From Mesostigma viride (Eukaryota; Streptophyta; Mesostigmatophyceae; Mesostigmatales; Mesostigmataceae): DNA of 64,000 nt. The position numbers and the translations under genes are program-made. The notes under the pieces are model-generated. The model saw nothing but the letters and a program-made list of their open reading frames with translations, searched no databases and was not told where the DNA came from. Shown one piece after another: positions 30,937 to 64,000 of the stretch. The stretch's first letter is position 1, and each line of letters begins with the position of its first letter. The DNA is taken from positions 9,072,701 to 9,136,700 of the forward strand of contig RPFO01000154.1 in NCBI GenBank assembly GCA_009746045.1, written 5' to 3'.

Positions 30937-31017
30937 CGAATTACAAGCGAGTTCGTAATCTACTGATTACGGCATTGATTTCTGGTGTCGGCAATTTTTA
31001 CGGTGTTTTTCCATTAT

Positions 31018-31581: not shown

Positions 31582-31731
31582 ATTTTCTGTTATAATTAAC
31601 AGAGAATTAATTCAGGAAAATTTTTTTCTTGGTTCCAGAGCTTAAGGGATTAATTTATTAATTCCCCAGCAGTATTCTTTCTTCAGCATCGGCATCGGCA
31701 TCGACAGTTGTCATCGGCATTCGCAGCGACC

Positions 31732-37131: not shown

Positions 37132-37759
37132 AGTTAATATTGCCTGGCAAGCAATATTATTCTACTAAGCTACTTGGCTTGTAGAGATTCTACTTCCGGT
37201 TACTACAATCCAGAAACGGGTTCATTCTGATGAGTATTGCTCGAGATGTGAGCAAGATACTGTTCTACTACATTCTACTTGGATTCAGTGATTCTACGGT
37301 GGTTCTTCAAGTGACGCGTGGCATACGACGTCTTGTCACAGTGTACGATAGGACATTTAGTCTCCGACACTGCGGTCTATTCAATGCTATTGATTAGACG
37401 TAACAAATAGTGACAGGACTTGTGCGACAGGACACTGATGTGACTATTTATGGATAACGAGTCGAGATCTGCTGGTCCAGAGTGAAGGACAGCAATATTG
37501 TGAGATGATCTGTCCTATCAGTCATCTGGATGTGACTGCGTCACAATTAGTATATAACGAGCAGGACGCTGCCACTTGGTAGCACCACTTTCCCTGCACC
37601 TGTGTCCTCGCACCTTCGGCGACGGTTCTCACGTGCCTTGTGCGTTCTGTGCTGGTAGCCATAACCAGCAACGTAAACCTATTGATTAATATAACTACTT
37701 CCTCTGTAGATATTAATCAGTGCAGGCTGAACCACAGTTCAGCCACAGTTTCGTTAACT
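37132..37759 (+). repeat. 3' LTR, Copia copy B
   Basis: 628 bp, same boundaries as the 5' LTR (AGTTAATATT to GTTAACT), followed by the second CCTGG target duplication at 37760-37764. Confidence 0.95.
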
Positions 37760-37764
37760 CCTGG
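37760..37764 (+). repeat. Target-site duplication CCTGG, right of Copia copy B
   Basis: Directly abuts the LTR end TTAACT and matches 30304-30308. Confidence 0.93.
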
Positions 37765-45891: not shown

Positions 45892-46965
45892 CTATCAAAT
45901 GGCATTCCCGCGAACCAAAAATTGGCCTGTAGCATCTTTAGGACGTATAAAATCAATTTCCTAAGTTTGGCCAGAAAATTCGAACGCAAACGTAAATGCC
46001 ATGCGTGGGCGCAAGCCGCCATGGCCAGGTCGTCGTTTTCCGGAACTGCACGTTTTACGTGAAAAAGTACCCTGACCCCTTGTACTTTGACCGGCCAGAA
46101 CACCTCTATAACTTTGTCAGAAGTATGCGAACCCTAGTACCATGCTGTGAGGAAAATTATAAACTTTCGATCTTCTCAGCTAAACTTTTCCTAATTCTCA
46201 ATAGTTTTCGCGCAATTTGGTCCCCCGCGGAGCAGCCGATGCATCGGCTGCAAGTCGATTTTTGGCGGAAAATCGGCTGCAAGACCAATGAGGGGTTAAG
46301 CCGCTTGGAGGAGGCGGTAATGGCTGCCGCGTTGGCCGGTGGCTGTGTCGCAATGGTGTCCACAGCGTCGACTAGTTGCGTAATGGTGTGAGGCGCTGAG
46401 TCCTCCCCATCGGCGGGGGCCGGGAATGGGAGGCGGCTGACGGTGATTCCGCCATGGCTAGTTTCACATCAAATTTTTTTGGCACTTTCTGGCCAAAAAA
46501 TTATTTGACTGGCTTGGTAAAACATGTTGAACCCAGGTTTTGGGCCCAAGCGAGCACATATATGGTAGTGTTTACCCCCCAAAATTGGGGGTCATCGGAC
46601 AAACCTGGCAAGGTTAACTGTGACGTATAACAGCATAAGGTACATGGTTTTTGACATTTTTGCACATATGGAGGCAAGCAATCAACATCAAATTTTATTC
46701 CATTGACCCAGAAACTTGCATGCAAACTGAATTATGGTCCTCCATCATGATGACATTGCGAAGTCTCAGTTTGCACCCCACCTTCAACATGTTGGTGACG
46801 TTTGACAGCATAAAAAGTCAACAAAATTTTTGCAGAGTGACCCGTTTTCCTGGGGAATGGCCAGGCCAGGCCAGGCAGTAATTAATAATAATATAGATTA
46901 CCCTAATTCCTAATGGACCTATGGAGAACTCATTGCAAAACACAAGTCATGGGAAGCATCATGCC
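45892..46965. other. Intergenic with an inverted repeat scrap
   Basis: 46225-46300 carries GCCGATGCATCGGCTGC and AAAATCGGCTGC..AATGAGGGGTTAA, an inverted relative of 43078-43125. No gene recognised. Confidence 0.45.
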
Positions 46966-46971
46966 TTTATT
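46966..46971 (-). terminator. AATAAA poly(A) signal of P5
   Basis: Minus-strand GATTAATAAAGG, about 60 nt after the P5 stop. A hairpin-capable CATATGAGTTACCATATG precedes it. Confidence 0.7.
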
Positions 46972-47028
46972 AATCATATGGTAACTCATATGGCTATCAA
47001 TTAGCCACTTATGTCACCAGGCAGGTAT

Positions 47029-47577
47029 CTAGTCCATCCAGCCAGCAAACATTGCATTGAAATCCAGGGGGGTGCTGGGGTTAAACAACATCCCCTGCAT
47101 CGTCCCGTGGCCAATTATGGGAGGAGGGAAAACGGCCTCCATCACCCCGTGCAGGCGCAGGTGCATTGACCACAGCTCCATCATTTCCTCTCGCGTCACG
47201 GGAACGTGCCCCCCTGCTGGCAGGTTGCGGGTAGACGAAAACGTGGCAGCCATCGCCTTGACCGCATCGTCGCAGCCCGTGTTCAGACTGGTCACCTCGA
47301 CGAGCTCCTGTTCGCCGCTGTCCCACGTTATGTGAAACAGCAAGACGCGTCCACCATCCTCCGTCACGGGGCCGAGGCACGCGTCGTGGATCGCGCGAAC
47401 GGGGGATTCGTTGTCGACATCGCTCAGACGCTGTTCGAATTCGCCATGCTCGCGACAGACGCGCCTCAGCGACGTCCTGGCATCGCGCAGTCGATTGGCG
47501 AGCTGGCTGCACGCGACGTGCAAGCTTTCAACCATCGCCATCGCCTCGGCCCCTGCGTTGGTGGGCCTGGGATTCAT
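47029..47577 (-). CDS. P5: unknown protein outside the seen palindrome, same gene style as P1-P4
   Basis: 182 codons from the ATG at 47577 (MNPRPTNAGAEAM). The frame is also open upstream to 47640, but without ATG. The N-terminal half is probably helical (ARTSLRRVCREHGEFEQRL). The middle has LLFHITWDSGEQELVEVTSL, a possible small beta domain. The end is hydrophobic (FNPSTPLDFNAMFAGWMD). Not recognised. A TATA-like TTTATATTG lies at about 47665, and an AATAAA end follows. It resembles the palindrome genes in length, GC-rich codon use and short UTRs, and may belong to the same element. Confidence 0.6.
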   Translation of the reverse strand: MNPRPTNAGAEAMAMVESLHVACSQLANRLRDARTSLRRVCREHGEFEQRLSDVDNESPVRAIHDACLGPVTEDGGRVLLFHITWDSGEQELVEVTSLNTGCDDAVKAMAATFSSTRNLPAGGHVPVTREEMMELWSMHLRLHGVMEAVFPPPIIGHGTMQGMLFNPSTPLDFNAMFAGWMD

Positions 47578-48229
47578 GGCGTCGTTGTCGGATATTGCGT
47601 GAGTTTCGTCGACGAAAATGGAAAGGGGAGACGATGGCAATGCGTGGGAAGACGTCGACGCAATATAAACGCGTTCCAGACGCTGGCGTTACGTCCTAAC
47701 CGTCTCCTGTCCGCCGGCATGGACGCGATGACCTGGAAATGCATCGGTTGACAGACAGCAATGCCGAACTGTGCTCGCTTTTTAGACCTCAAAATTTAGT
47801 ATCTACGCGTTTAGGGCGATGCCCCGGATCGCATGCGTCTATAAATCGTTAAATATCCTTAAATATCCGATTCGTGTGCCCCTTCTTCGTGCCAGGCGAC
47901 CATCGCTTTCGTTAGACATCCATTTGCTGCACTGGCGAGCTTCGCGCATCTCGTCTATTGTGCCGTCGCCACATGGCACGAAATGTACTATACGTGCGTC
48001 CTGGTACAGTGATATCGCCTGTCGTCGCGCACCTTTTTGTCTCTAGGCCTTTTCGAGTCGAAATCGCCCAAGTCCTTGGCCTCGGCGGGCAGTCTGAGGG
48101 CCTAGGGCGCGTGCGACGCGTCGTGGGGCGTCGATACTACATGCGTGGTACGGCGGGCACGGGAACTACGCGTACCACGTCGTACCGTCCACCAACGTGA
48201 CCAGCCTGCGCGGGGCGCGGGGAATTAAC
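47578..48229. promoter_or_regulatory. P5 upstream region
   Basis: TATA-like element near 47665 (minus) and a TCTTCCCA motif at 47655 (minus) similar to those of the palindrome genes. On the plus strand, ATAAATCGTTAAATATCC at 47840 is AT-rich. No additional gene. Confidence 0.4.
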
Positions 48230-48400
48230 GGGGCGTACATGGAATTTTACTTCAGACGATACGGATCTACTTCAAAGTACGGTGTACTACGCCGTACCGC
48301 CCAGCAACGCGTCAGATCTGCGCGGGGCGCGGGGAATCAACTTGACGTACAGGGAACTTTACTTCAGACGATACGGATTTACTTCAAAGTACTCCAAACT
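48230..48400. repeat. Two-unit tandem repeat of about 118 bp
   Basis: GCGCGGGGCGCGGGGAAT starts at about 48210 and 48318, followed in both by TTTACTTCAGACGATACGGA and CTACTTCAAAGTAC-like sequence. The left palindrome arm enters this repeat. Confidence 0.75.
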
Positions 48401-48401
48401 A

Positions 48402-48590
48402 GCCGACGTACGTTTGAAGTACGGAAACCCACGTTGTACTAGTTTGTACTATTCAACTAACCAGTGACGTAAGTTTTAAGTACGGAAACCCACGTTGTAC
48501 TAGTTTGTACTACCCAATTGGCCAGTGACGTAAGTTTGAAGTACGGAAACCCATGTTGTACTAGTTTGTACTACGCCATACGTGTCCCAG
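48402..48590. repeat. 61-bp tandem repeat, three units
   Basis: Units near 48402, 48463 and 48524, each with AAGTACGGAAACCCACGTTG and TACTAGTTTGTACTA. The right-arm counterpart is at about 63705-63895. Confidence 0.85.
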
Positions 48591-48610
48591 CCATCGCGCG
48601 AGACGTCTGC

Positions 48611-48925
48611 CACGTGTCAGTCATCGACGGTGCCACGTGTCAGTCATCGACGGTGCCACGTGTCGGTCATCGACGGTGCCACGTGTCAGTCATCGACGGT
48701 GCCACGCGTCGGTCATCGACGGTGCCACGTGTCGGTCATCGACGGTGCCACGTGTCGGTCATCGACGGTGCCACGTGTCGGTCATCGACGGTGCCACGCG
48801 TCGGTCATCGACGGTGCCACGCGTCGGTCATCGACGGTGCCACGTGTCGGTCATCGACGGTGCCACGTGTCGGTCATCGACGGTGCCACGTGTCGGTCAT
48901 CGACGGTGCCACGTGTCGGTCGTCG
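48611..48925. repeat. 23-bp tandem array, 13 units plus a partial, G-box containing
   Basis: Exact 23-bp period from 48611: CACGTGTCGGTCATCGACGG + TGC, with variants (CAGTC; CGCGT in place of CGTGT). Most units carry CCACGTGTC, a G-box/ABRE-type bZIP site. There are no unique spacers, so it is not a CRISPR. It lies downstream of P1 and about 900 bp upstream of P5. The right-arm copy (63404-63690) is eroded. Confidence 0.93.
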
Positions 48926-49086
48926 CGTGACGGCGCGGGTCATCGCCGGGTCCGAGGACGTATGTAGGACTTAGCCGATTTCGGTCGCGAGGCCGCGAAT
49001 CCTACATACCCAGTGCATGATGGGCGCGCGTGGGATGACTCGTTGAGCAAGACAAGAGAGGGCTTTTATTAATAAATAGATAGTGC

Positions 49087-49117
49087 ATTACATGACGAGG
49101 CTCTCGTTTCGAGCCTC
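49087..49117 (-). terminator. P1 3' hairpin and AATAAA
   Basis: Minus strand: GAGGCTC/GAGCCTC stem (49097-49117) about 35 nt after the P1 stop, then CATGTAATGC and AATAAA at about 49065-49070. The same structure is at 63206-63258 in the right arm. Confidence 0.7.
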
Positions 49118-49150
49118 CAATAGGAGGAGTTATCCACCCCTAAGTTTCCA

Positions 49151-49863
49151 CTAAAAATCCGACAGGTCATCGCCCTCGGACTCATCCAGGTCCCCGTCGG
49201 ACTCGCGGTTCCAGCGTGGGTTCCACTCGTCGTCCTCGTCGAACGGGTCAAAATTCTCGTTGAACATGTCATCAATAACGTCCCCCTCGGAGCGTTCGCG
49301 GACGAGTCTGCACTTCTTGTCACAGGCCGCGGAGGGGTGGCCGAAGTCCCTGAGGACCTGCTCGCCGGCCTCTTCGGCGATCTGGTAATCGCAGACGCGC
49401 GCGTAGTCTTGGCGCCATTCGAAAAACCCATCATGTTCGCGGCAGCGACGGCAGAGGATGTCGCATTCCTCGCCCCCGTGGAAATGCCGCTTCACCATCA
49501 TGAGCGCCACGCGCGTCGTCCTGCGCCCGCACCGTCGGCAATGGGCGTGGGGCTTCTTGAACAGCTTGCGAGGCCGGATCGGGTCGCGACGGGCCGCGGC
49601 GGCCTGCTTGTGGGTCAGGTAAGAATCGTCTCCCTCGCGCGGCTTTCGGGGCGCCCCGGGCGCCTGGGGAACCGTGTCGGCCTGCGGGGGGCGCGGACAG
49701 CACGCGAGGGAAGAATGCACGATCGAGGTCAGCGAGAGAAACAGGACAAGCGGACACGCGAACAGACTCGGGGAAGAATGGCGGACAGAGAGAGAGTCCT
49801 CGCGCACTCGATTCTTACCTGGACAACCGCGCCGGACACCGGGGAGGAATTGGGAGTGGCCAT
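49151..49863 (-). CDS. P1: zinc-ribbon-like acidic protein, two exons (left arm)
   Basis: Exon 1 is 49863-49819 (MATPNSSPVSGAVVQ), the intron 137 bp (GTAAGA...CCGCAG), exon 2 49681-49151; 191 codons, intron phase 0. The middle has HCRRCGRRTTR and CDILCRRCREHDGFF, two CxxC knuckles 20 residues apart that suggest a zinc ribbon. A third Cys pair, CDKKC, follows. The N-terminus is basic (KPREGDDSY, KLFKKPHAHC). The C-terminal 45 residues are strongly acidic (DVIDDMFNENFDPFDEDDEW). A nucleic-acid or chromatin role is plausible but inferred. I do not recognise the family. The right-arm copy is identical in frame and length. Confidence 0.82.
49682..49818 (-). other. P1 intron with TTCTTCCC motifs
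   Basis: 137-bp GT-AG intron containing CATTCTTCCCCGAG and GCATTCTTCCCTCG. The P2 and P3 introns also have two or more such motifs. Confidence 0.8.
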
Positions 49864-50075
49864 TCGGGGAAGATTTCGGGAGATGGGGAGAGGGCTTTCG
49901 AGGCAGTGTCTCGAGTGAGAGCTCGTTGCGTGGGATGCCCGGACAGAGCGGGTGTCCCGCTTATGTAGTGGCGACGGGTTCCCACGGACGGCCAGGATGA
50001 TCCTCCGATCCACGGTGTGCCAATCACTCTGCCTGCGCCGCGCCAACCGATCCGATCGGACGCTCGCTCGTATCC
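49864..50075 (-). promoter_or_regulatory. P1 promoter
   Basis: On the minus strand: CCAAT box (GATTGGCACACCG), TATA-like CTACATAAGCGG, then CTGTCCGGGCATCC, which also occurs at the same place in the P2 promoter, and a leader ending AATCTTCCCCGA before the ATG. Confidence 0.65.
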
Positions 50076-50941
50076 TATTGGTGGATACTCCAAGCGCCGC
50101 GCCAGAGACGGGTGTACCCTCTGTTCCACCTCCCCTTTCCGCCCTCTTAACCCCTATTATTGACCCCCGAAAACCCCCTTCCCGACCCCTAAAAAAGCCC
50201 TGTTCCAGTGTTCCGGCCCACCCCCCCTGGGCCGGTATCATTTGAAAAAAAAAAAATTCTGGCCAGGAAAATGGCGTTTTCGGACTTAGCCGATTTCGGC
50301 CTCTCCCTCTCTCCCTCTCTCCTTCTCTCTCTCTCCTTTCTCTCTCCTCTCCCTATCTCTTCTCCTCTCCCTTCCCGTCCCTATATATCCAGGGTATAGG
50401 GGGTCTATATATTTTCCTATTATCTACTTTTTAGAAGAATACCGGCACGCCCCCTCCGGGAATAGGAACGGTATATATAGGCGGCTATTCGTCCTATTTA
50501 ACCGTGGGCGTGAATAGGACACCGTCTCATATATCCTATTTCCGGGAGGGTGGTTCCGGTATCATTCTAAAAAGTAGATAATAGGAAAATAAATAGATAG
50601 ACCCTATTCCATGGATATATAGGGAGGAAGGAGAGGAGAAAGGGAGAGAGGGAAGGAAGGGATGGAGAGAGAGGAAGGAAGGAAGGGAGAGAAAGGGGAA
50701 GAGGAGGCTGAAAACGGCTAAGTCCAAAACGAAGGATTTCGGTCCCAGGAAAATTTTTTTTCAGAATGATACCGGCCCAGGGGGGGTGGGCCGGAACACC
50801 GGAACAGGCCTTTTTCGGGGGTCGGGAAGGGGGTTTTCGGGGGTCAAAAAAAGGGGTGAATAGGGCAAAAAGAGGGGTGGAACGGGCTGCGCCTCCCTTT
50901 CGGGCCGAATCGGCGCAGCGCTCCGAGTATCCTCCAATCGG
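50076..50941. repeat. Nested imperfect palindrome, about 865 bp
   Basis: The left half (CTATTGGTGGATACTCC ... GGGCCGGTATCATT) pairs with the right half (AATGATACCGGCCC ... GAGTATCCTCCAATCG), with the centre near 50508. By eye the halves are about 75-80 percent alike, so it is older than the large palindrome. It includes CT-rich and GA-rich tracts, AAAAAGTAGATAATAGG blocks and ACTTAGCCGATTTCGG-type motifs. There is no ORF. The right-arm copy is 61384-62248. Confidence 0.88.
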
Positions 50942-51230
50942 ATCGCTCCGTTCGGCGGGAGATCCACGTGACCAGGGTGAGTCGCATCTCTCTTCTGGCG
51001 CCGTACTCCTAGTATCCACCAATGATAAGCGCCCGTACTACCGAGTGACCGAGACGGACTTGATTGGTGACAGATGTAAGCATAAGATACGCGGCGTCAA
51101 CGCACGCGGACGCGCCCGGATAGCGGGCTTGGGACTTGGCCGAATTCGCGGGTCCGCGGTCCTAGCTATGCGCATCTAGCTACCGTGGGAACATGATGGG
51201 ACTCATTGAATAGGGTTCATACACTCTTTT
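50942..51230. promoter_or_regulatory. Promoter-like block without an obvious gene
   Basis: Contains TAGTATCCACCAATG, GATTGG and GGACTTGGCCGAATTCG modules like those upstream of the palindrome genes, but no coding sequence begins nearby. It may serve as spacer or be a relic of a lost gene. The P2 poly(A) signal lies at its right edge. Confidence 0.4.
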
Positions 51231-51286
51231 ATTCATAAATAGGCGGGGTTAAAGCACGTATCTCCTATCTACCCTGGCTATCTACC

Positions 51287-52454
51287 TCACGCGGCGCGCG
51301 CGTCGGCGAGGACGCGGGCCGGGGACACGCCGTCCTCGTGGTATACGGCGGGCACGCCGCGGCTGGGCGGGATGGAGCTGATGCACACGGCGCGCACCCA
51401 GGTGGACCCGTCCGTCCTCCGCTCGTACTCCAGGAACACGTTGGCATTTGGCCGCTTGGAAAGGCCGGCCCGACGCGCCTCGTGCGAGGACAGGATCGCA
51501 GCGAGCGGGCTGCGAGCGAAGTCCCTCAGTGGGACAAGTCCGATCGTGCGCCCCGGCCGGCCGGCGTGGCGGAAGACGCTGTACACAGTGCCGTCCGACG
51601 CGGTCGCCGGCTCGCTCAGCCAGTAGTCGGCCCCGACGCCGACTTCGTACGCCGGAATTACTTCCACGAACTTCCCCGCGGAGTCGACCCAGCGCGTGCG
51701 GCCCTTGGCGTCGTCTTGCCTTCGCACGGTCGGGTCGCGCGCCACGTGCGCAAACACGGATGAGGCCAGGTGTCGCTTGGTCAGGGGGCCGAATGCGGGC
51801 CAGTCCTTGACGCGGTCGGAGAAGTCCGGAAACTCGCTGTCGTCCGCCGTCATCTCGGCGGCGGGCCGCTTCTTGGTCGCGGGACGAGGGGCGGGCGCGG
51901 GACGAGGCGCGGGCGCGGGCGCCGGCGTGGGCGGGAGGACGGTGTCGGAGCCCTGCGCCCACGTGCCCGTTTCGTAGGACGGTGAGGCGGGGAAGCCGTA
52001 GGCGTCCGCGAACGAGCTGACCGGCGCGCTGTGCTTGAGCGGGCCGACCACTTGGCTGGAGGAGTCGGTGATGTCCGCCAGCAGGAGGTACGTCCACGGC
52101 CCCACTCGCGCGCCTTCGGGGGGCGGGGGAGGCGCGGCGACGAGCGCGGTGTCCGCGGGGCTGTCCGGGGTCGATTCGCCGCCGGACGCCGCCCCGGCGC
52201 AGTCCGGGTCGATCTCGTCGAGCGTCGGGAAGCTTCCCCATCCCAGGCCCTCCATGATGTCCACGTCCTGCATGGTGCGGATGCGAGCATAAGATGCGCG
52301 AGTGTGTTAGAGGGAAGAATTCGAGGGGCCAGACATGCGCGAGGATGGCTAGATGGGGGAAGAATGTGGGTCTCACCTTTTCGGGGAACATACGCAGGAT
52401 GTCGAAGGACAGTTCGGAGAGGCAGCGCAGGTCGGGCGTCTGTGCGGAATCCAT
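51287..52454 (-). CDS. P2: unknown protein with C-terminal domain shared with P3, two exons (left arm)
   Basis: Exon 1 is 52454-52377 (26 codons, MDSAQTPDLRCLSELSFDIL), the intron 109 bp, exon 2 52267-51287; 352 codons, phase 0. N-terminal part: acidic stretch (DVDIMEGLGWGSFPTLDEID), a possible activation-domain-like segment, then Ser/Pro. The middle is Pro/Ala-rich (APAPAPRPAPAPRPATKKR) with a basic nuclear-signal-like KKR. Residues 175-352 form a domain shared with P3: FSDRVKDWPAFGP, GRTIGLVPLRDF, DGSTWVRAV, YHEDGVSPARVL. Function unknown. The right-arm copy is frameshifted. Confidence 0.82.
52268..52376 (-). other. P2 intron with TTCTTCCC motifs
   Basis: 109-bp GT-AG intron (GTGAGA ... 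ATGCAG) with ACATTCTTCCCCC and GAATTCTTCCCTC. An ATG at the acceptor (ATGCAG) is in frame with exon 2 and could give a shorter product if intron 1 were retained. Confidence 0.8.
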
Positions 52455-52800
52455 GGAGGAAGAATTGGTGGGGAGAGAGTTGGAGAGTCGGAGAGAGCTG
52501 GAGAGCTGTACTCGAGAGAGCTGGAGAGCAGGATGCCCGGACAGTCCGGTTGTCCTCCTCTTTATGCGTTTTTCGTGGGCGAACGGACGCTCCGGATTCG
52601 CCGCGATCGGAGGGTTGCCAATCACCCTCCGTGGATAACGCCGATCGTGTGCCAATCACGGCCGACCGTCGGATGGGCCGGGCATCTCCCGCGCCGCGCC
52701 ATCGTTACCGTGGAGATGCGCTAGTATCCACCGATGTATGTTAGTATCCACCAATGGGACGCCGGCGAGCCATACCGCGGCCTGGACTTAGCGATTTCGG
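52455..52800 (-). promoter_or_regulatory. P2 promoter with shared modules
   Basis: On the minus strand: GTATCCACCAAT-type modules (about 52722-52755, two copies), CCAAT boxes (GATTGGCACACGATCGG, GATTGGCAACC), TATA-like CGCATAAAGAGG, CTGTCCGGGCATCC, then a CT-rich leader with AGCTCTC repeats ending ATTCTTCCTCC before the ATG. Confidence 0.65.
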
Positions 52801-53014
52801 GACTTAGCCATTTTCGGGACTTTGCGACATTGGGACTGTCCCGGCGTCCTGCTACTCTAACGTCATCGCGCGCGGCCGCGGTCGGGACTGCCTACTTGGG
52901 ACTTAGCGTCCTACGTGTGCATGATGTTGAGACTTGAGACGGGAACATGCAGGCAAGGCTTTATTAATCAATAAAATGGTGTTAATCACAAGTCGCTATC
53001 TACATGTACACATG

Positions 53015-53031
53015 ATAGCCCCCGGGGCTAT
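53015..53031 (-). terminator. P3 3' hairpin
   Basis: ATAGCCCC-C-GGGGCTAT, a perfect 8-bp stem about 20 nt after the P3 stop, followed by AATAAA at about 52970-52975 on the minus strand (TTGATTAATAAAGCC). Confidence 0.75.
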
Positions 53032-53050
53032 TCGATAGGATCGTCGCCGC

Positions 53051-54566
53051 TCAGCAGGAGCGGGCGGCGAGCAAGAGCTGGGCGGGCGTCAGCCCGCGCG
53101 CGTGGTACGACGCGACAGTGGGCCGGGCAATGGTTGTCTTCACGAGGGCCACGGCGCGAACCCACTGCGAACCGTCCGCGGCCGTTTCGGTCTCCAGGAT
53201 GACGGAGCCGTGCCTCGCCCGGCCGAGTCCGCACTCGTTGAGGTCGTCGACGGACGGCATATAGGCCAGCGGGGTGGACGGAAAGTCCCGCAGGGGCACC
53301 AATCCGATCGTACGGCCGATGGCGACGCAGCGGGTGAAGACGGGCGCCGAAGTCGGCCCGTCGGGCTGGGCCAGCCACACCTCTGGCCGGCCCAGGCGGG
53401 GCTTGAGCTCCGGGATCTTCTCGATGCAACGGCCTTCCGAGTCCTCGTAACGCTTACCGACGAGGACGCACGCGGTGTCCTTCACGAGCGCCGCCACGAC
53501 GCGCTGGGTCTGCGGCCCAAACGCGCGCCAGTCGCCTATGCGGGCCGAGAAGTCCGGCAGGGCGGACGGTGCGGGCAGGGCGGACGGAACGGACAGGACG
53601 GGCAGGGCGTACGGGACGGAGGAGGACGGGACGGACACTCGGGCGGTCTGGACGGACGTCGGCGCGCTCGACGCGCTGGACTCCTGGCGCCGCGCCGTGC
53701 GAGGCCTCTTGGGCACGGGGGGCTGCGCGGGCGCGTCGACCGTATCCGGCGCCTGGTTGAAGTAGCTGTCGCCGTAGTTGATGAGGAGTTCCTCCCCCTC
53801 GCGGATGTCCCTCAAGGCGTACACGCGGGAGGACAGCAACGCGTCGTTGGGAGTCTTGAACTCGCAGTTCTGAATGCCCCGGCCCTCGTGGTGGTTGATG
53901 AAGGCCGTTTCGTTGCAGTACGTGTCCGCCTCCAGGCACACCGCGTACGTCCGTCCGTCGAAGAGCGTCATACGGTAGCATCCGTCCGTCTTCACCTGGG
54001 CGGACGACGTGTCCAGATCTCCGTCTGGCAGCCTGTAGTACCGCACCAGGGCGCCGCCGTACACCCCGATCTCGTCTCCCGCCGCGAAGTCCCGGCCGGC
54101 GAACGCGCCGAACGGGCCGTGCGGGTCGTTAGCCGGGAGCGCCCTGACGCGGATCCGGTCGTTGAGGGAAGATTCGAGCATCCCGAGCTGGGCGCCCACT
54201 TCGAGCGTCGGGCACCCCGGGGTCACGGGTGCCGACACGTACATTTTTAGCTGGCCGTTGCACCCGGTCATGGGGGCCAGGTGCCGCTCACTGGACAGGA
54301 ACATCCGCCGGAACAGCTTGTGCGCGGCGCGCTCGTTCTTCTCGAATTCTTCTTCGTGTCGGGGGCGCTTGGCCTGCGTCGGGGAAGAAACGGGTCGCAT
54401 ACGCACGGGCAAACAGGTGAGGGAAGAAACGGTGGGTCAGATCGTGTGTGATAACCAGGGAGGCGGGGAGAAGGAAGCCGCGGTTCGAAGGGGAAGAATC
54501 GCTTACCGCGCGGACCTTGGCGGCGGTGCAGGGGTTGGGGGAAGAAACGGTAGCAGCCGATGCCAT
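53051..54566 (-). CDS. P3: SET-domain protein with P2-like C-terminal domain, two exons (left arm)
   Basis: Exon 1 is 54566-54507 (MASAATVSSPNPC...), the intron 133 bp, exon 2 54373-53051; 460 codons, phase 0. SET domain at about residues 92-225: GPFGAFAGRDFAAGDEIGVY (SET start), NETAFINHHEGRG (place of the NHS..PN motif), EELLINYGDSYF (catalytic Tyr region). SET enzymes transfer methyl from S-adenosylmethionine to lysine; here histone or other targets are unknown. A Pro/Ser-rich linker (PSALPAPSALP) follows, then residues 295-460: the domain shared with P2 (FSARIGDWRAFGP, GRTIGLVPLRDF, DGSQWVRAV, YHARGLTPAQLL). No pre-SET or post-SET Cys cluster was seen, so it is a compact SET protein. The right-arm copy is frameshifted. 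Confidence 0.88.
54374..54506 (-). other. P3 intron with TTCTTCCC motifs
   Basis: 133-bp GT-AG intron with GATTCTTCCCCTTC, GTTTCTTCCCTCAC and GTTTCTTCCCCGACGCAG, the last overlapping the polypyrimidine tract. Confidence 0.8.
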
Positions 54567-55170
54567 GGCAAAATAGAGAAGTGTGGGAGGCTAGCTGGGA
54601 GCTGGTTTGCTGGAGTGATGGTCGAAGGAATGACAAGACCCGGGTCCTGTGCCCATTATGTAGTCCTCGGGTGTCCGGCGGTTACGGGATCGACGCACGG
54701 GAGCGATTGGCGAGATCGACGGTGGGTGATTGGCCGGCGCGGACGGGCCTGGACGGACGTATCCACGGCACGCCAATCACGGGCACGCCAATCGGGCGAG
54801 CCAGTCCCGATCGGACGGCTGCCAATCCCCCGGCCGCCAATCGGACGAGCCAATCCCGTCCGGTGATTGGCCCTCTTCTGGACGGACCTGGACGGGCGTA
54901 TCCACGGCACGCCAATCGCGGATCCGCCAATCGGACGGGCCAATCTCGCCCTAGTGATTGGCCGGCCGCGATCGGGTCCCACAAGAGATGGGATGGTCGG
55001 ATGCATGCCACGTGGCGCATATTGATTGGCTGGCGTCTGATCGCCCATCGCGCCATCCCGTCCGATGGGTATAAGTTCTTGGGGGTGTTCGGATCTCGTC
55101 ACCAAGCTCTCCGCTCTCCGCAGCTCAAAAAACCCGCAGCCCTCCCCATTCTTCTCCAAAGCCCCCAAAA
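54567..55170. promoter_or_regulatory. Bidirectional CCAAT-dense promoter between P3 and P4
   Basis: P3 (minus) and P4 (plus) diverge from here. Between 54700 and 55040 there are about a dozen CCAAT boxes in both orientations (GCCAATC/GATTGGC), interleaved with CGTATCCACGGCACGCCAAT repeats and GGACGGACCTGGACGG. TATA-like sequences are GACTACATAATGG for P3 (54650, minus) and GGGTATAAGTTC for P4 (55067). Such density suggests an NF-Y-type factor; this is inference. Confidence 0.75.
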
Positions 55171-55620
55171 ATGGCCCCACGCACCAAGGAGTCCGCCCGC
55201 AGGCAGGCGAATTATTCCATCACGGGACGCTTCCTGGCCGAGCCATGGCGCAACCATCCTCTCGTCACGAAATCATTCGAGGATGAATTCGCAGCGTTCG
55301 CCGAAACGCTGGAAGACCTCCCTATTCCTCCCTCAGGCCAGAGGGTGGATATCGTCGAGGTGGACGCTGGCTCTTCCGCCGCGTCGCCCGTAAAGTCGTT
55401 CTACGACCTCCAGAGGGTCGTTTCGGCCATTCGTTTTGCCCGCGCCGCGAAGAGGGCACGGGTGAACGCGCCGATTGTCGCTGGCGATGCGCCGGTTGAC
55501 GGCAATGTGGCGGGCGCAAGTGACGCTCGGCCCAAGTCTCCACGCGCTGACGTGGATTGTGAGTTGGTGGGCGAGATCGTGACGGCCTCCAGTGGCGAGA
55601 AATTCGTTGTCGCCGAGTGA
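55171..55620 (+). CDS. P4: small unknown basic/acidic protein (left arm)
   Basis: 149 codons from the ATG at 55171, single exon, preceded by a leader with CATTCTTCTCC. Residues 1-50 are basic then mixed (APRTKESARRQANYSITGRF, AEPWRNHPLVTKSFEDEFAA). The middle has VVSAIRFARAAKRARVNAPI, a possible nuclear signal or helix. The end is CELVGEIVTASSGEKFVVAE. Not recognised. The stop is followed by a small ATCCCG/CGGGAT stem and AATAAA at 55685-55690. It points at the palindrome centre, tail to tail with its mirror copy, whose protein is identical. Confidence 0.75.
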   Translation: MAPRTKESARRQANYSITGRFLAEPWRNHPLVTKSFEDEFAAFAETLEDLPIPPSGQRVDIVEVDAGSSAASPVKSFYDLQRVVSAIRFARAAKRARVNAPIVAGDAPVDGNVAGASDARPKSPRADVDCELVGEIVTASSGEKFVVAE

Positions 55621-55684
55621 ACAATGACCCTGGAAATCCCGACTGACGGGATCCACGGAGGCCATTAAATGAAATGGATTGAAT

Positions 55685-55690
55685 AATAAA
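55685..55690 (+). terminator. P4 poly(A) signal AATAAA
   Basis: GAATAATAAAGCG 65 nt after the P4 stop; mirrored at 56656-56661 (minus) for the right copy. Confidence 0.75.
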
Positions 55691-56655
55691 GCGATTGTTA
55701 CCCCATTCTTGTGTGAATGCATGTCCACGTAGATAGGATCGCGCGGAATCTAGGATGGCATGACAAGTGGCATGTTCATAGAGATCCTAGATTCTGTTCA
55801 GGCTGTTCAGGCAATCCGATCCCGCTGACGTCATCGTTGACCATGATGCAATATAGGATTTCGCGACGGAAAACGGCCACGTGGCACGCGCGGAAGTAGC
55901 GTGTAGTGTATCCAGGGTACGGATCACGGAATCAAAAGAGTACGGCCCAAAAAAAATATCTAAAGCGCATAGTATAAAATGAAGAATCTCAGATACGGTG
56001 GATCCTGGGATGTCCAGGGAGGTGTCAGAGATCCGAATATTCGATCGTAACCGTCGCCTGAACAGGATCTGGGACGTCCAGGGACCCTTGGGTGTACGGA
56101 CATGACGTCATCTGCTGACGTCAGCACGCCGAGTCGTCGAGTGGTGACGTCACCAGGTGCCAGCGGAGAAAGCCCGCCCAGGGAGGCACCTGGTGACGTC
56201 ACCACTCGACGACTCGGCGTGCTGACGTCAGCAGATGACGTCATGTCCGTACACCCAAGGGTCCCTGGACGTCCCAGATCCTGTTCAGGCGACGGTTACG
56301 ATCGAATATTCGGATCTCTGACACCTCCCTGGACATCCCAGGATCCACCGTATCTGAGATTCTTCATTTTATACTATGCGCTTTAGATATTTTTTTTGGG
56401 CCGTACTCTTTTGATTCCGTGATCCGTACCCTGGATACACTACACGCTACTTCCGCGCGTGCCACGTGGCCGTTTTCCGTCGCGAAATCCTATATTGCAT
56501 CATGGTCAACGATGACGTCAGCGGGATCGGATTGCCTGAACAGCCTGAACAGAATCTAGGATCTCTATGAACATGCCACTTGTCATGCCATCCTAGATTC
56601 CGCGCGATCCTATCTACGTGGACATGCATTCACACAAGAATGGGGTAACAATCGC
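55691..56655. promoter_or_regulatory. Palindrome centre: non-coding, CRE-rich, 23-nt spacer
   Basis: The arms meet at a spacer 56162-56184 (AGCGGAGAAAGCCCGCCCAG + GGA). TGACGTCA (a perfect CRE/bZIP palindrome) occurs at 56103, 56116 and 56145 and is mirrored at 56194, 56223 and 56236; another is at 55826 with its mirror. ORFs across this region exist identically in both directions and are products of symmetry. The arms are identical for roughly 1 kb either side. Confidence 0.85.
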
Positions 56656-56725
56656 TTTATTATTCAATCCATTTCATTTAATGGCCTCCGTGGATCCCGT
56701 CAGTCGGGATTTCCAGGGTCATTGT

Positions 56726-57175
56726 TCACTCGGCGACAACGAATTTCTCGCCACTGGAGGCCGTCACGATCTCGCCCACCAACTCACAATCCACGTCAGC
56801 GCGTGGAGACTTGGGCCGAGCGTCACTTGCGCCCGCCACATTGCCGTCAACCGGCGCATCGCCAGCGACAATCGGCGCGTTCACCCGTGCCCTCTTCGCG
56901 GCGCGGGCAAAACGAATGGCCGAAACGACCCTCTGGAGGTCGTAGAACGACTTTACGGGCGACGCGGCGGAAGAGCCAGCGTCCACCTCGACGATATCCA
57001 CCCTCTGGCCTGAGGGAGGAATAGGGAGGTCTTCCAGCGTTTCGGCGAACGCTGCGAATTCATCCTCGAATGATTTCGTGACGAGAGGATGGTTGCGCCA
57101 TGGCTCGGCCAGGAAGCGTCCCGTGATGGAATAATTCGCCTGCCTGCGGGCGGACTCCTTGGTGCGTGGGGCCAT
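56726..57175 (-). CDS. P4 mirror copy (right arm)
   Basis: 149 codons, protein identical to the left copy. It converges on the palindrome centre. The leader differs from the left arm at a few bases (GGGGGG against GGGGG before TGTTCGG, and TCTCCC against TCCCC). Confidence 0.75.
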   Translation of the reverse strand: MAPRTKESARRQANYSITGRFLAEPWRNHPLVTKSFEDEFAAFAETLEDLPIPPSGQRVDIVEVDAGSSAASPVKSFYDLQRVVSAIRFARAAKRARVNAPIVAGDAPVDGNVAGASDARPKSPRADVDCELVGEIVTASSGEKFVVAE

Positions 57176-57780
57176 TTTTGGGGGCTTTGGAGAAGAATGG
57201 GAGAGGGTTGCGGGTTTTTCGAGCTGCGGAGAGCGGAGAGCTTGGTGACGAGATCCGAACACCCCCCAAGAACTTATACCCATCGGACGGGATGGCGCGA
57301 TGGGCGATCAGACGCCAGCCAATCAATATGCGCCACGTGGCATGCATCCGACCATCCATCTCTTGTGGGACCCGATCGCGGCCGGCCAATCACTAGGGCG
57401 AGATTGGCCCGTCCGATTGGCGGATCCGCGATTGGCGTGCCGTGGATACGCCCGTCCAGGTCCGTCCAGAAGAGGGCCAATCACCGGACGGGATTGGCTC
57501 GTCCGATTGGCGGCCGGGGGATTGGCAGCCGTCCGATCGGGACTGGCTCGCCCGATTGGCGTGCCCGTGATTGGCGTGCCGTGGATACGTCCGTCCAGGC
57601 CCGTCCGCGCCGGCCAATCACCCACCGTCGATCTCGCCAATCGCTCCCGTGCGTCGATCCCGTAACCGCCGGACACCCGAGGACTACATAATGGGCACAG
57701 GACCCGGGTCTTGTCATTCCTTCGACCATCACTCCAGCAAACCAGCTCCCAGCTAGCCTCCCACACTTCTCTATTTTGCC
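57176..57780. promoter_or_regulatory. Mirror of the bidirectional CCAAT promoter
   Basis: Same dense CCAAT/GATTGG array as 54567-55170 in inverted order, serving P4 (minus) and P3 (plus) copies. TATA-like GACTACATAATGG precedes P3. Confidence 0.7.
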
Positions 57781-59285
57781 ATGGCATCGGCTGCTACCGT
57801 TTCTTCCCCCAACCCCTGCACCGCCGCCAAGGTCCGCGCGGTAAGCGATTCTTCCCCTTCGAACCGCGGCTTCCTTCTCCCCGCCTCCCTGGTTATCACA
57901 CACGATCTGACCCACCGTTTCTTCCCTCACCTGTTTGCCCGTGCGTATCGCCCGTTTCTTCCCCGACGCAGGCCAAGCGCCCCCGACACGAAGAAGAATT
58001 CGAGAAGAACGAGCGCGCCGCGCACAAGCTGTTCCGGCGGATGTTCCTGTCCAGTGAGCGGCACCTGGCCCCCATGACCGGGTGCAACGGCCAGCTAAAA
58101 ATGTACGTGTCGGCCCCGTGACCCCGGGGTGCCCGACGCTCGAAGTGGGCGCCCAGCTCGGGATGCTCGAATCTTCCCTCAACGACCGGATCCGCGTCAG
58201 GGCGCTCCCGGCTAACGACCCGCACGGCCCGTTCGGCGCGTTCGCCGGCCGGGACTTCGCGGCGGGAGACGAGATCGGGGTGTACGGCGGCGCCCTGGTG
58301 CGGTACTACAGGCTGCCAGACGGAGATCTGGACACGTCGTCCGCCCAGGTGAAGACGGACGGATGCTACCGTCTGACGCTCTTCGACGGACGGACGTACG
58401 CGGTGTGCCTGGAGGCGGACACGTACTGCAACGAAACGGCCTTCATCAACCAACGAGGGCCGGGGCATTCAGAACTGCGAGTTCAAGACTCCCAACGACG
58501 CGTTGCTGTCCTCCCGCGTGTACGCCTTGAGGGACATCCGCGAGGGGGAGGAACTCCTCATCAACTACGGCGACAGCTACTTCAACCAGCGCCGGATACG
58601 GTCGACGCGCCCGCGCAGCCCCCCGTGCCCAAGAGGCCTCGCACGGCGCGGCGCCAGGAGTCCAGCGCGTCGAGCGCGCCGACGTCCGTCCAGACCGCCC
58701 GAGTCCGTCCCGTCCTCCTCAATCCCGTACGCCCTGCCCGTCCAGTCCGTTCCGTCCGCCCTGCCCGCACCGTCCGCCCTGCCGGACTTCTCGGCCCGCA
58801 TAGGCGACTGGCGCGCGTTCGGGCCGCAGACCCAGCGCGTCGTGGCGGCGCTCGTGAAGGACACCGCGTGCGTCCTCGTCGGTAAGCGTTACGAGGACTC
58901 GAAGGCCTGCGTCGAGAAGATCCCGGAGCTCAAGCCCCGCCTGGGCCGGCCAGAGGAGTGGCTGGCCCAGCCCGACGGGCCGACTTCGGCGCCCGTCTTC
59001 ACCCGCTGCGTCGCCATCGGCCGTACGATCGGATTGGTGCCCCTGCGGGACTTTCCGTCCACCCCGCTGGCCTATATGCCGTCCGTCGACGACCTCAACG
59101 AGTGCGGACTCGGCCGGGCGAGGCACGGCTCCGTCATCCTGGAGACCGAAACGGCCGCGGACGGTTCGCAGTGGGTTCGCGCCGTGGCCCTCGTGAAGAC
59201 AACCATTGCCCGGCCCACTGTCGCGTCGTACCACGCGCGCGGGCTGACGCCCGCCCAGCTCTTGCTCGCCGCCCGCTCCTGCTGA
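57781..59285 (+). pseudogene. P3 mirror copy, frameshifted SET gene (right arm)
   Basis: Exon 1 57781-57840 and exon 2 from 57972 follow the left-arm structure. Relative to the left arm there is a 1-nt loss near 58112 (GTGTCGGCCCCGTGACC), a 2-nt loss near 58452, further losses near 58590 and 58710, and changes near 58900. The SET and C-terminal domains are each readable but in different frames. As written it cannot make the full protein. Confidence 0.85.
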
Positions 59286-59370
59286 GCGGCGACGATCCTA
59301 TCGAATAGCCCCGGGGGCTATCATGTGTACATGTAGATAGCGACTTGTGATTAACACCATTTTATTGATT

Positions 59371-59376
59371 AATAAA
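59371..59376 (+). terminator. AATAAA of P3 mirror copy
   Basis: TTGATTAATAAAGCC, preceded by the ATAGCCCC/GGGGCTAT hairpin at about 59305-59321. Confidence 0.75.
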
Positions 59377-59881
59377 GCCTTGCCTGCATGTTCCCGTCTC
59401 AAGTCTCAACATCATGCACACGTAGGACGCTAAGTCCCAAGTAGGCAGTCCCGACCGCGGCCGCGCGCGATGACGTTAGAGTAGCAGGACGCCGGGACAG
59501 TCCCAATGTCGCAAAGTCCCGAAAATGGCTAAGTCCCGAAATCGCTAAGTCCAGGCCGCGGTATGGCTCGCCGGCGTCCCATTGGTGGATACTAACATAC
59601 ATCGGTGGATACTAGCGCATCTCCACGGTAACGATGGCGCGGCGCGGGAGATGCCCGGCCCATCCGACGGTCGGCCGTGATTGGCACACGATCGGCGTTA
59701 TCCACGGAGGGTGATTGGCAACCCTCCGATCGCGGCGAATCCGGAGCGTCCGTTCGCCCACGAAAAACGCATAAAGAGGAGGACAACCGGACTGTCCGGG
59801 CATCCTGCTCTCCAGCTCTCTCGAGTCCAGCTCTCCAGCTCTCTCCGACTCTCCAACTCTCTCCCCACCAATTCTTCCTCC

Positions 59882-61044
59882 ATGGATTCCGCACAGACGC
59901 CCGACCTGCGCTGCCTCTCCGAACTGTCCTTCGACATCCTGCGCCTGTTCCCCGAAAAGGTGAGACCCACATTCTTCCCCCATCTAGCCATCCTCGCGCA
60001 TGTCTGGCCCCTCGAATTCTTCCCTCTAACACACTCGCGCATCTTATGCTCGCATCCGCACCATGCAGGACGTGGACATCATGGAGGGCCTGGGATGGGG
60101 AAGCTTCCCGACGCTCGACGAGATCGACCCGGACTGCGCCGGGGCGGCGTCCGGCGGCGAATCGACCCCGGACAGCCCCGCGGACACCGCGCTCGTCGCC
60201 GCGCCTCCCCCGCCCCCCGAAGGCGCGCGAGTGGGGCCGTGGACGTACCTCCTGCTGGCGGACATCACCGACTCCTCCAGCCAAGTGGTCGGCCCGCTCA
60301 AGCACAGCGCGCCGGTCAGCTCGTTCGCGGACGCCTACGGCTTCCCCGCCTCCGTCCACGAAACGGGCACGTGGGCGCAGGGCTCCGACACCGTCCTCCC
60401 GCCCACGCCGGCGCCCGCGCCCGCGCCTCGTCCCGCGCCCGCCCCTCGTCCCGCGACCAAGAAGCGGCCCGCCGCCGAGATGACGGCGGACGACAGCGAG
60501 TTTCCGGACTTCTCCGACCGCGTCAAGGACTGGCCCGCATTCGGCCCCCTGACCAAGCGACACCTGGCCTCATCCGTGTTGCGCACGTGGCGCGCGACCC
60601 GACCGTGCGAAGGCAAGACGACGCCAAGGGCCGCACGCGCTGGGTCGACTCCGCGGGGAAGTTCGTGGAAGTAATTCCGCGTACGAAGTCGGCGTCGGGG
60701 CCGACTACTGGCTGAGCGAGCCGGCGACCGCGTCGGACGGCACTGTGTACAGCGTCTTCCGCCACGCCGGCCGGCCGGGGCGCACGATCGGACTTGTCCC
60801 ACTGAGGGACTTCGCTCGCAGCCCGCTCGCTGCGATCCTGTCCTCGCACGAGGCGCGTCGGGCCGGCCTTTCCAAGCGGCCAAATGCCAACGTGTTCCTG
60901 GAGTACGAGCGGAGGACGGACGGGTCCACCTGGGTGCGCGCCGTGTGCATCAGCTCCATCCCGCCCAGCCGCGGCGTGCCCGCCGTATACCACGAGGACG
61001 GCGTGTCCCCGGCCCGCGTCCTCGCCGACGCGCGCGCCGCGTGA
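59882..61044 (+). pseudogene. P2 mirror copy, frameshifted (right arm)
   Basis: Exon 1 59882-59959, intron, exon 2 from 60069. Exon 1 differs by two adjacent substitutions (RLF against RMF in the left arm). A 3-nt in-frame deletion lies near 60355. Single-base losses near 60580 (TTT to TT) and 60680 (GG to G) break the frame before the shared C-terminal domain, which resumes in another frame to 61044. Confidence 0.85.
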
Positions 61045-61097
61045 GGTAGATAGCCAGGGTAGATAGGAGATACGTGCTTTAACCCCGCCTATTTATG

Positions 61098-61103
61098 AAT
61101 AAA
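61098..61103 (+). terminator. AATAAA of P2 mirror copy
   Basis: ATTTATGAATAAAAGAGTG, about 55 nt after the P2 stop. The left-arm equivalent is at about 51229-51234 (minus). Confidence 0.7.
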
Positions 61104-61383
61104 AGAGTGTATGAACCCTATTCAATGAGTCCCATCATGTTCCCACGGTAGCTAGATGCGCATAGCTAGGACCGCGGACCCGCGAATTCGGCCAAGTCCC
61201 AAGCCCGCTATCCGGGCGCGTCCGTGCGTTGACGCCACGTATCTTATGCTTACATCGTCACCGTCTAGGTCCGTCCGGTCACTCGGTAGTACGCGCGCCT
61301 TTCATTGGTGGATACTAGGAGTACGGCGCCAGAAGAGAGGTGCGGTTCACCCGCCCCGTGGATCTCCCGCCGAACGGAGCGAT

Positions 61384-62248
61384 CCGATTGGAGGATACTC
61401 GGAGCACTGCGCCGATTCGGCCCGAAAGGGAGGCGCAGCCCGTTCCACCCCTCTTTTTGCCCTATTCACCCCTTTTTTTGACCCCCGAAAACCCCCTTCC
61501 CGACCCCCGAAAAAGGCCTGTTCCGGTGTTCCGGCCCACCCCCCCTGGGCCGGTATCATTCTGAAAAAAAAATTTTCCTGGGACCGAAATCCTTCGTTTT
61601 GGACTTAGCCGTTTTCAGCCTCCTCTTCCCCTTTCTCTCCCTTCCTTCCTTCCTCTCTCTCCATCCCTTCCTTCCCTCTCTCCCTTTCTCCTCTCCTTCC
61701 TCCCTATATATCCATGGAATAGGGTCTATCTATTTATTTTCCTATTATCTACTTTTTAGAATGATACCGGAACCACCCTCCCGGAAATAGGATATATGAG
61801 ACGGTGTCCTATTCACGCCCACGGTTAAATAGGACGAATAGCCGCCTATATATACCGTTCCTATTCCCGGAGGGGGCGTGCCGGTATTCTTCTAAAAAGT
61901 AGATAATAGGAAAATATATAGACCCCCTATACCCTGGATATATAGGGACGGGAAGGGAGAGGAGAAGAGATAGGGAGAGGAGAGAGAAAGGAGAGAGAGA
62001 AGGAGAGAGGGAGAGAGGGAGAGGCCGAAATCGGCTAAGTCCGAAAACGCCATTTTCCTGGCCAGAATTTTTTTTTTTCAAATGATACCGGCCCAGGGGG
62101 GGTGGGCCGGAACACTGGAACAGGGCTTTTTTAGGGGTCGGGAAGGGGGTTTTCGGGGGTCAATAATAGGGGTTAAGAGGGCGGAAAGGGGAGGTGGAAC
62201 AGAGGGTACACCCGTCTCTGGCGCGGCGCTTGGAGTATCCACCAATAG
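61384..62248. repeat. Nested imperfect palindrome, right-arm copy
   Basis: Inverted copy of 50076-50941 with the same internal symmetry; nearly unchanged between arms. Confidence 0.85.
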
Positions 62249-62459
62249 GATACGAGCGAGCGTCCGATCGGATCGGTTGGCGCGGCGCAGGCAGAGTGAT
62301 TGGCACACCGTGGATCGGAGGATCATCCTGGCCGTCCGTGGGAACCCGTCGCCACTACATAAGCGGGACACCCGCTCTGTCCGGGCATCCCACGCAACGA
62401 GCTCTCACTCGAGACACTGCCTCGAAAGCCCTCTCCCCATCTCCCGAAATCTTCCCCGA
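62249..62459 (+). promoter_or_regulatory. P1 promoter, right-arm copy
   Basis: GATTGGCACACCG CCAAT box, CTACATAAGCGG TATA-like element, CTCTGTCCGGGCATCC, leader with AATCTTCCCCGA before the ATG. Confidence 0.65.
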
Positions 62460-63172
62460 ATGGCCACTCCCAATTCCTCCCCGGTGTCCGGCGCGGTTGT
62501 CCAGGTAAGAATCGAGTGCGCGAGGACTCTCTCTCTGTCCGCCATTCTTCCCCGAGTCTGTTCGCGTGTCCGCTTGTCCTGTTTCTCTCGCTGACCTCGA
62601 TCGTGCATTCTTCCCTCGCGTGCTGTCCGCGCCCCCCGCAGGCCGACACGGTTCCCCAGGCGCCCGGGGCGCCCCGAAAGCCGCGCGAGGGAGACGATTC
62701 TTACCTGACCCACAAGCAGGCCGCCGCGGCCCGTCGCGACCCGATCCGGCCTCGCAAGCTGTTCAAGAAGCCCCACGCCCATTGCCGACGGTGCGGGCGC
62801 AGGACGACGCGCGTGGCGCTCATGATGGTGAAGCGGCATTTCCACGGGGGCGAGGAATGCGACATCCTCTGCCGTCGCTGCCGCGAACATGATGGGTTTT
62901 TCGAATGGCGCCAAGACTACGCGCGCGTCTGCGATTACCAGATCGCCGAAGAGGCCGGCGAGCAGGTCCTCAGGGACTTCGGCCACCCCTCCGCGGCCTG
63001 TGACAAGAAGTGCAGACTCGTCCGCGAACGCTCCGAGGGGGACGTTATTGATGACATGTTCAACGAGAATTTTGACCCGTTCGACGAGGACGACGAGTGG
63101 AACCCACGCTGGAACCGCGAGTCCGACGGGGACCTGGATGAGTCCGAGGGCGATGACCTGTCGGATTTTTAG
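62460..63172 (+). CDS. P1 mirror copy, intact (right arm)
   Basis: Exons 62460-62504 and 62642-63172, 191 codons, same protein as the left copy. Intact despite frameshifts in its neighbours. Confidence 0.82.
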
Positions 63173-63252
63173 TGGAAACTTAGGGGTGGATAACTCCTCC
63201 TATTGGAGGCTCGAAACGAGAGCCTCGTCATGTAATGCACTATCTATTTATT

Positions 63253-63258
63253 AATAAA
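63253..63258 (+). terminator. AATAAA of P1 mirror copy
   Basis: TTTATTAATAAAAGCCC, about 80 nt after the stop, preceded by the GAGGCTC/GAGCCTC hairpin. Confidence 0.75.
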
Positions 63259-63403
63259 AGCCCTCTCTTGTCTTGCTCAACGAGTCATCCCACGCGCGCC
63301 CATCATGCACTGGGTATGTAGGATTCGCGGCCTCGCGACCGAAATCGGCTAAGTCCTACATACGTCCTCGGACCCGGCGATGACGTCACGCGACGCGACG
63401 TGC

Positions 63404-63895
63404 ACCGACCGACACGTGGCACCGTCGATGACCGACACGTGCACCGTCGATGACCGACACGTGGCACGCGATGACCGACGTGGCACCGTCGATGACCGAC
63501 CGTGGCACCGTCGATGACCGACACGTGGCACCGTCGATGACCGACACGTGGCACCGTCGATGACCGACACGTGGCACCGTCGATGACCGACGCGTGGCAC
63601 CGTCGATGACTGACACGTGGCACCGTCGATGACCGACACGTGGCACCGTCGATGACTGACACGTGGCACCGTCGATGACTGACACGTGGCAGACGTCTCG
63701 CGCGATGGCTGGGACACGTATGGCGTAGTACAAACTAGTACAACATGGGTTTCCGTACTTCAAACTTACGTCACTGCCAATTGGGTAGTACAAACTAGTA
63801 CAACGTGGGTTTCCGTACTTAAAACTTACGTCACTGGTTAGTTGAATATACAAACTAGTACAACGTGGGTTTCCGTACTTCAAACGTACGTCGGC
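63404..63895. repeat. Eroded mirror of the 23-bp and 61-bp tandem arrays
   Basis: The same 23-bp units (GACACGTGGCACCGTCGATG) but with several units missing 1-6 bases between 63404 and 63520, followed by the 61-bp repeats. In the left arm all 13 units are exactly 23 bp. Confidence 0.85.
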
Positions 63896-64000
63896 TAGTT
63901 TGGAGTACTTTGAAGTAAATCCGTATCGTCTGAAGTAAAGTTCCCTGTACGTCAAGTTGATTCCCCGCGCCCGCGCAGATCTGACGCGTTGCTGGGCGGT

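Follow-up and report, generated by a model that had tools for sequence, protein, structure and literature searches.

What kind of element forms the giant palindrome at the end of a 64,000-nt stretch of Mesostigma viride DNA (GenBank assembly GCA_009746045.1, contig RPFO01000154.1, positions 9,072,701 to 9,136,700 of the forward strand), referred to below as the window? BLAST comparison of the window with its own reverse strand gave one continuous self-match from 48296 to 64000, with 98.86% identity including gaps over 15,764 columns. A chance origin is excluded by this self-match, and the palindrome is confirmed as genuine within the assembled sequence. We propose, with a probability of about 45%, that it is the mirrored regulatory segment of a lineage-specific mobile, probably DNA-virus-derived nuclear element that acts on host chromatin and transcription.

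The left arm (48296-56161, forward strand, 7,866 bp) was delimited by self-comparison, and its true outer end may lie further left. Direct sequence reading and folding place an asymmetric 23-nt spacer at the axis (56162-56184), followed by the right arm, the mirror of the left (56185-64000, reverse strand, 7,816 bp). The right arm reaches the edge of the window at 64000, which bounds the arm comparison and where mirror symmetry is still intact. Global alignment of the two arms showed 7,775 identical bases out of 7,813 aligned, 38 substitutions and 30 indels; 27 of these indels are bases that the right arm lacks, and 3 are bases that it has in addition. Perfect complementarity extends 1,017 bp outward from the spacer in both directions (55145-56161 and 56185-57201). 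The axis strand 56095-56251 folds at -99.8 kcal/mol, compared with a shuffle mean of -30.7, and none of 200 shuffles folded as low. G and C make up a fraction of 0.607 of 46900-56173 and 0.616 of the sequence to the right of the axis, versus 0.538 of 1-46899. A first-pass annotation of this DNA had described a palindrome of at least 15.7 kb with arms of about 7.8 kb, symmetric up to the window edge, with a 23-nt spacer, four mirrored gene pairs and a GC-rich cassette distinct from the sequence to its left; each of these features was recovered, the spacer at exactly the positions claimed.

Four genes, named A to D, were located in both arms. C and D are divergent, and B and A follow C on its strand. 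A, B and C each open with a short exon, after which comes a GT-AG intron. In the left arm, gene A (49151-49863, reverse strand) comprises exons 49819-49863 and 49151-49681, with splicing read from the sequence and an intron of 137 nt. Gene B (51287-52454, reverse strand, 352 aa) is made of exons 52377-52454 and 51287-52267 around a 109-nt intron, and gene C (53051-54566, reverse strand, 460 aa) of exons 54507-54566 and 53051-54373 around a 133-nt intron. Gene D (55171-55620, forward strand, 149 aa) is intronless and reads towards the axis. The exon join in B agrees with a database model (P0005) and that in C equals the join in another (P0001). The right-arm counterparts are D' (56726-57175, reverse strand), C' (57781-59285, forward strand), B' (59882-61044, forward strand) and A' (62463-63172, forward strand, the counterpart of 49151-49860). 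The coding sequences of A' and D' are identical to those of A and D; B' and C' are frameshifted, with four and five coding indels, respectively. A further gene, the orphan P5 (47032-47577, reverse strand, 182 aa), lies outside the part whose mirroring can be checked.

The clearest functional assignment concerns C, which carries a SET domain (PF00856, 39.6 bits against a curated cut-off of 22.4, E = 7.3e-10 in Pfam). Among solved chains, C was closest to KMT5A (E = 9.5e-6), then to EZH2-type (1.1e-5), G9a-type (0.0011) and the viral vSET chain (1n3j, 0.16). In SET lysine methyltransferases an Asn-His motif and a C-terminal Tyr motif form the active site. The corresponding candidates in C are FINHH and NYGD. 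The latter lines up with DYGD in the KMT5A chain, but the HMMER alignment places INHH one residue away from the INHS of that chain. An intact SET active site is therefore a likely prediction for C. A bacterial effector model of NCBIfam also matched over the SET region, far below its cut-off (28.8 versus 550 bits). B and C share a C-terminal domain (43% identity) that matched no Pfam family. A PDB profile search with a five-row alignment returned SET-type chains only; it is uninformative on the shared domain because three of the five rows carried SET residues.

The other products are more elusive. The protein of gene A has a Cys/His-rich middle part and an acidic C-terminus; it matched no family above cut-off in Pfam and NCBIfam scans, and in NCBIfam ribosomal L37e and IS21 transposase models matched far below cut-off only, as did a surface-protein model for B. 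Pfam matches of P5 were all below cut-off, and its assignment as an RWP-RK transcription factor was rejected (13.7 bits versus a cut-off of 29.3). Neither D nor A had a PDB match better than E = 1. D matched no family in Pfam, PHROGs or NCBIfam. Its N-terminal residues APRTKESARRQ resemble the tail of histone H3, ARTKQTARKST, and none of 20,000 shuffles of D scored as high, in a test made post hoc, after the likeness had been noticed, on one of five proteins. We take this likeness, seen at the level of residues, as a lead and no more.

We then asked how widely these genes occur. Relatives of C formed 10 protein clusters, all coded jgi/Mesvir1 in EukProt, which we take to be Mesostigma viride, with 20 member sequences; scoring in this search was limited to the 7,996 candidates sharing most words. 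Relatives of D formed 4 clusters with 13 members, one cluster (P0013, 2 members) being without a named source, and relatives of P5 formed 2 Mesvir1 clusters with 15 members. All 15 named representatives of these relatives are Mesvir1 models, and the protein searches with C, D and P5 found no relative from another named source at E = 0.001. P0001 (Mesvir1 5703) agrees with the left-arm C at every residue of its two exons (20 and 440 residues). For the right-arm C the counterpart is P0006 (Mesvir1 5706), of whose 332 residues 271 lie in an identical match. Several of the C models P0003-P0010 look like joins around frameshifts or like fusions of C, B and A, and annotation of the C family in Mesvir1 seems unreliable. 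By our own grouping on adjacent model numbers, the 15 representatives fall into 11 groups; the named members are cluster representatives only, and taking model numbers as scaffold order is an inference. At a second locus, C models 12047 and 12050 are spaced as in 5703 and 5706 (C, two models, C), with P5 at 12052; at a third, D model 3399 stands near C model 3401. Because the genes of the block recur many times among the predicted proteins of the alga, the block is likely a mobile or virus-derived element and not a one-off assembly error.

The style of the genes differs from that of the host. Cassette introns measure 109-137 nt and cassette genes 0.45-1.5 kb, whereas the mean intron length reported for M. 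viride in PMC6947507 is 1,142 bp and the mean gene length 5,941 bp. The block stands out from host genes through its compact genes with short introns, its high GC and its copy number.

The sequence between the genes is rich in short motifs, for which G-box, CRE/C-box and CCAAT box are presumably the fitting names; all are putative sites. A 23-bp tandem array of 13.8 copies (48608-48925, forward strand; mirrored at 63407-63691) contains 11 occurrences of the G-box-like CCACGTGTC, which is found once in the 46.9 kb to the left. Thirteen CCAATC boxes, counted on both strands, lie at 54705-55029 between the divergent C and D, a region that is a probable two-way promoter for these genes, to judge by its motifs. 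Three TGACGTCA palindromes (56103-56152, at 56103, 56116 and 56145) are within 60 bp of the spacer. Across 46900-56173, CCAATC occurred 20 times (shuffle mean 5.3, maximum 13 in 200 shuffles), TGACGTCA 4 times (mean 0.14), GGACTTAG 6 times (mean 0.12), always between genes, and ATTCTTCC 6 times (mean 0.29). TTCTTCCC occurred 8 times in the same region, 7 times inside three introns and once in the first exon of C. These are the first introns of A (49682-49818), B (52268-52376) and C (54374-54506), which hold the motif 2, 2 and 3 times; it is present once in the 46.9 kb to the left. A common intron origin and a shared regulatory element are both candidate explanations of this sequence pattern. 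A TATA-like motif was found 94-112 nt upstream of the start codon in each of A to D. Between A and B, self-comparison also revealed an older palindrome nested within the arm (50123-50883). It is about 760 bp long with 79% likeness, is mirrored at 61442-62200 and contains GGACTTAG at 50282 and 50718.

The differences between the arms are informative about how the palindrome came to be in the assembly. The C variants P0001 and P0002 differ at 31 codons. The left arm equals P0001 at all of them, while the right arm is P0001-like at 22, P0002-like at 5 (codons 155, 273, 280, 337 and 352) and like neither at 4. The right arm thus contains alleles of another member of the C family. The left arm has none of these alleles, so it is unlikely that one molecule simply folded back on itself, which would leave arms identical but for random error. 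Such a mosaic could reflect either gene conversion or mixed assembly. A' and D' are free of coding indels, whereas B' has 4 and C' has 5, nine in all. Of those in C', 3 coincide with codons that distinguish P0001 from P0002 (binomial P = 0.003, post hoc) and 2 lie elsewhere. The right-arm indels likely arose when a consensus dropped bases where reads of several copies disagreed, and the frameshifts in B' and C' are therefore probably not real.

Searches for viral and other known sequences returned few matches. A phage origin found no support, as the single PHROGs match was P5 at E = 0.087 and C, the sole query, was absent from phage records. A match of P5 in a viral contig (L001) was set aside, since it covered 22 residues of a longer protein on a contig with phage-like open reading frames (ORFs). 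A known RNA palindrome was rejected, with no Rfam match at gathering score and no tRNA in the window; likewise, no ribosomal RNA (rRNA) gene was found in the arms at that score. The window contains no telomere-like run of at least two units of TTTAGGG, TTAGGG or TTTTAGGG. At the level of titles and abstract openings, literature on Mesostigma and endogenous or giant viruses, mirusviruses and endogenous viral elements described no such element. The first-pass annotation had offered three candidates: a terminal inverted repeat of an endogenous DNA virus, a fold-back assembly product and a subtelomeric or episomal inverted duplication. A viral or mobile origin fits the gene style and copy number, though without a hallmark gene; simple fold-back is unlikely given the alleles and the recurrence of the genes, and a subtelomeric position is unsupported without telomere runs.

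If the palindrome belongs to a mobile, virus-derived element, regulatory genes would be present twice per unit of a nuclear element. Host polymerase and splicing machinery would express the cassette, with C as a methyltransferase for histones or for a protein resembling them, and A and B, with their acidic segments, would act as transcription factors. The mirror form may have arisen when an inverted repeat at the axis primed its own fold-back, or else from a hairpin end there, the perfect repeat closing over the 23-nt loop; the mirrored unit would then spread, and its copies exchange sequence afterwards. Several observations weigh against this proposal. Scans of the cassette proteins and of seven ORFs in the left flank turned up no capsid, polymerase, terminase, integrase or transposase, and the earlier statement that no viral hallmark gene is visible holds for the cassette proteins scanned (Pfam, PHROGs and NCBIfam). 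When viral_contigs was scanned for C, for P5, for D, for A and for the B/C domain, no convincing relative emerged; these scans reach close relatives through few peptide patterns, and whole B and the SET domain alone were left out of them. The predicted structures of the B/C domain and of P5 are poor (mean predicted local distance difference test scores of 42.5 and 37.4). For the second locus, a mirrored arrangement and its orientation are presumed from gene-model numbers. The right-arm indels suggest a mixed consensus, and the arm is possibly not one real molecule. Moreover, 7 of the 9 changed codons in C' are non-synonymous, partly from imported alleles of another copy.

These points bring in other explanations of the mirror form. 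Each copy might be a single arm that terminates at the spacer, either in a snap-back end or in a hairpin that is covalently closed, so that long reads rounding the loop were assembled as a palindrome. The 23-nt spacer, flanked on either side by 1,017 bp of perfect inverted repeat, would suit such an end, as would the orientation of D, which points to an axis that is possibly the end of the molecule; a hairpin would also give all copies one and the same axis, which is what the model spacing suggests for the second locus. We nonetheless regard a natural hairpin end as unlikely: the allelic differences between the arms are unexpected from one hairpin molecule unless reads of several copies were mixed, and the window has no telomere-like run. 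We are similarly doubtful that several copies were collapsed into one right-arm consensus and wrongly joined in mirror orientation, even if the excess of missing bases in that arm (27 of 30 indels), the restriction of all nine coding indels to B' and C' and the coincidence of three of the five in C' with family-variable codons speak for such an assembly product. A sequencing adapter left in a read is about 45 nt long, and one that had been missed would leave that length, whereas the spacer has 23 nt. The axis is identical over 1,017 bp per side and the numbering C, two models, C recurs at the second locus, which also tells against a wrong join. On the other side, the read N50 of M. viride given in part of PMC6947507, 11.2 kb, is shorter than the palindrome, a point that counts if the window comes from that assembly.

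A host origin appears quite unlikely. Here ordinary algal genes specific to the lineage would have undergone an inverted duplication, subtelomeric or ampliconic, and gene conversion would have kept the arms similar, in line with the high arm identity combined with mosaic alleles and with the abundance of segmental duplications in M. viride stated in a passage of PMC6947507. However, gene and intron sizes are strongly unlike the reported host averages, the named copies fall in 11 number groups, and no TTTAGGG-type run is present in the window.

The proposed virus-derived element can be compared with several known systems. In herpesviruses, inverted-repeat segments hold regulatory (immediate-early) genes in two copies. 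The block resembles them in its mirrored regulator-like genes, GC richness, tandem reiterations and host-factor-like motifs, but no herpesvirus gene was found in the cassette and its spacer is only 23 nt. Large palindromes formed at a short inverted repeat are exemplified by the ribosomal DNA of Tetrahymena, and origin-dependent inverted amplification at short inverted repeats is described for yeast in a part of PMC4689423. Long arms around a short asymmetric centre, here 23 nt, are shared with both; in contrast, the block lacks an rRNA gene (Rfam), its genes occur at many places and its arms differ allelically. The vSET protein (A612L) of chlorovirus PBCV-1 is, like C, a SET-domain methyltransferase, in this case of an algal virus; according to an excerpt of PMC3089700, infection raised H3K27 methylation and repressed transcription. 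C is nearer to KMT5A, EZH2-type and G9a-type chains than to vSET and has the extra C-terminal domain shared with B. By analogy, vSET is best viewed as a functional parallel to C, not as a sign of relationship. Mirusviruses, as presented in part of PMC12768974, have spliceosomal introns and are expected to be expressed in the nucleus, as proposed for the block, but no mirusvirus gene was identified in it.

The left part of the window is of a different nature. It contains a second, separate inverted repeat of 2.8 kb (1-2822 and 30309-33120, 96.7% identical) with ORFs that look gag-like by eye. A long ORF at 32936-36355 resembles a retroelement polyprotein by eye and had no Pfam match at 0.001. 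A 630-bp sequence is present three times (2194-2822, 30305-30937 and 37128-37760), the third copy being 99.2% and 99.8% like the others. Two copies in direct order bracket 30305-37760, and the first is reversed. From this arrangement, the bracketing copies are probably the long terminal repeats of one retroelement and 2194-2822 a further copy. A reverse transcriptase ORF (RVT_1, 86 bits) lies at 7195-8310. At 15266-17674 is an open leucine-rich-repeat ORF of 802 aa, whose repeats form a 72-bp tandem array and whose end matches Root_cap just below threshold (26.6 versus 27 bits).

A bolder version of the proposal, which we consider a long shot, is a self-spreading mirrored element with its own chromatin kit: C as methyltransferase, B as a partner with the same targeting domain, A as a zinc-finger-like acidic factor, D as an H3-tail mimic serving as substrate or decoy, and arrays of host-factor-like sites. 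Such an element would rewire host chromatin and replicate by hairpin priming at the axis. If the palindrome instead reflects mixed assembly, it would be a warning of frameshifted duplicates in the gene set of the alga. If the proposed element is real, the origin of long algal palindromes from hairpin-ended nuclear elements would become testable and, in Mesostigma, which stands near the base of the streptophytes, a multicopy mirrored block that encodes a histone-like tail together with a chromatin enzyme would represent a new means by which an element controls the chromatin of its host.

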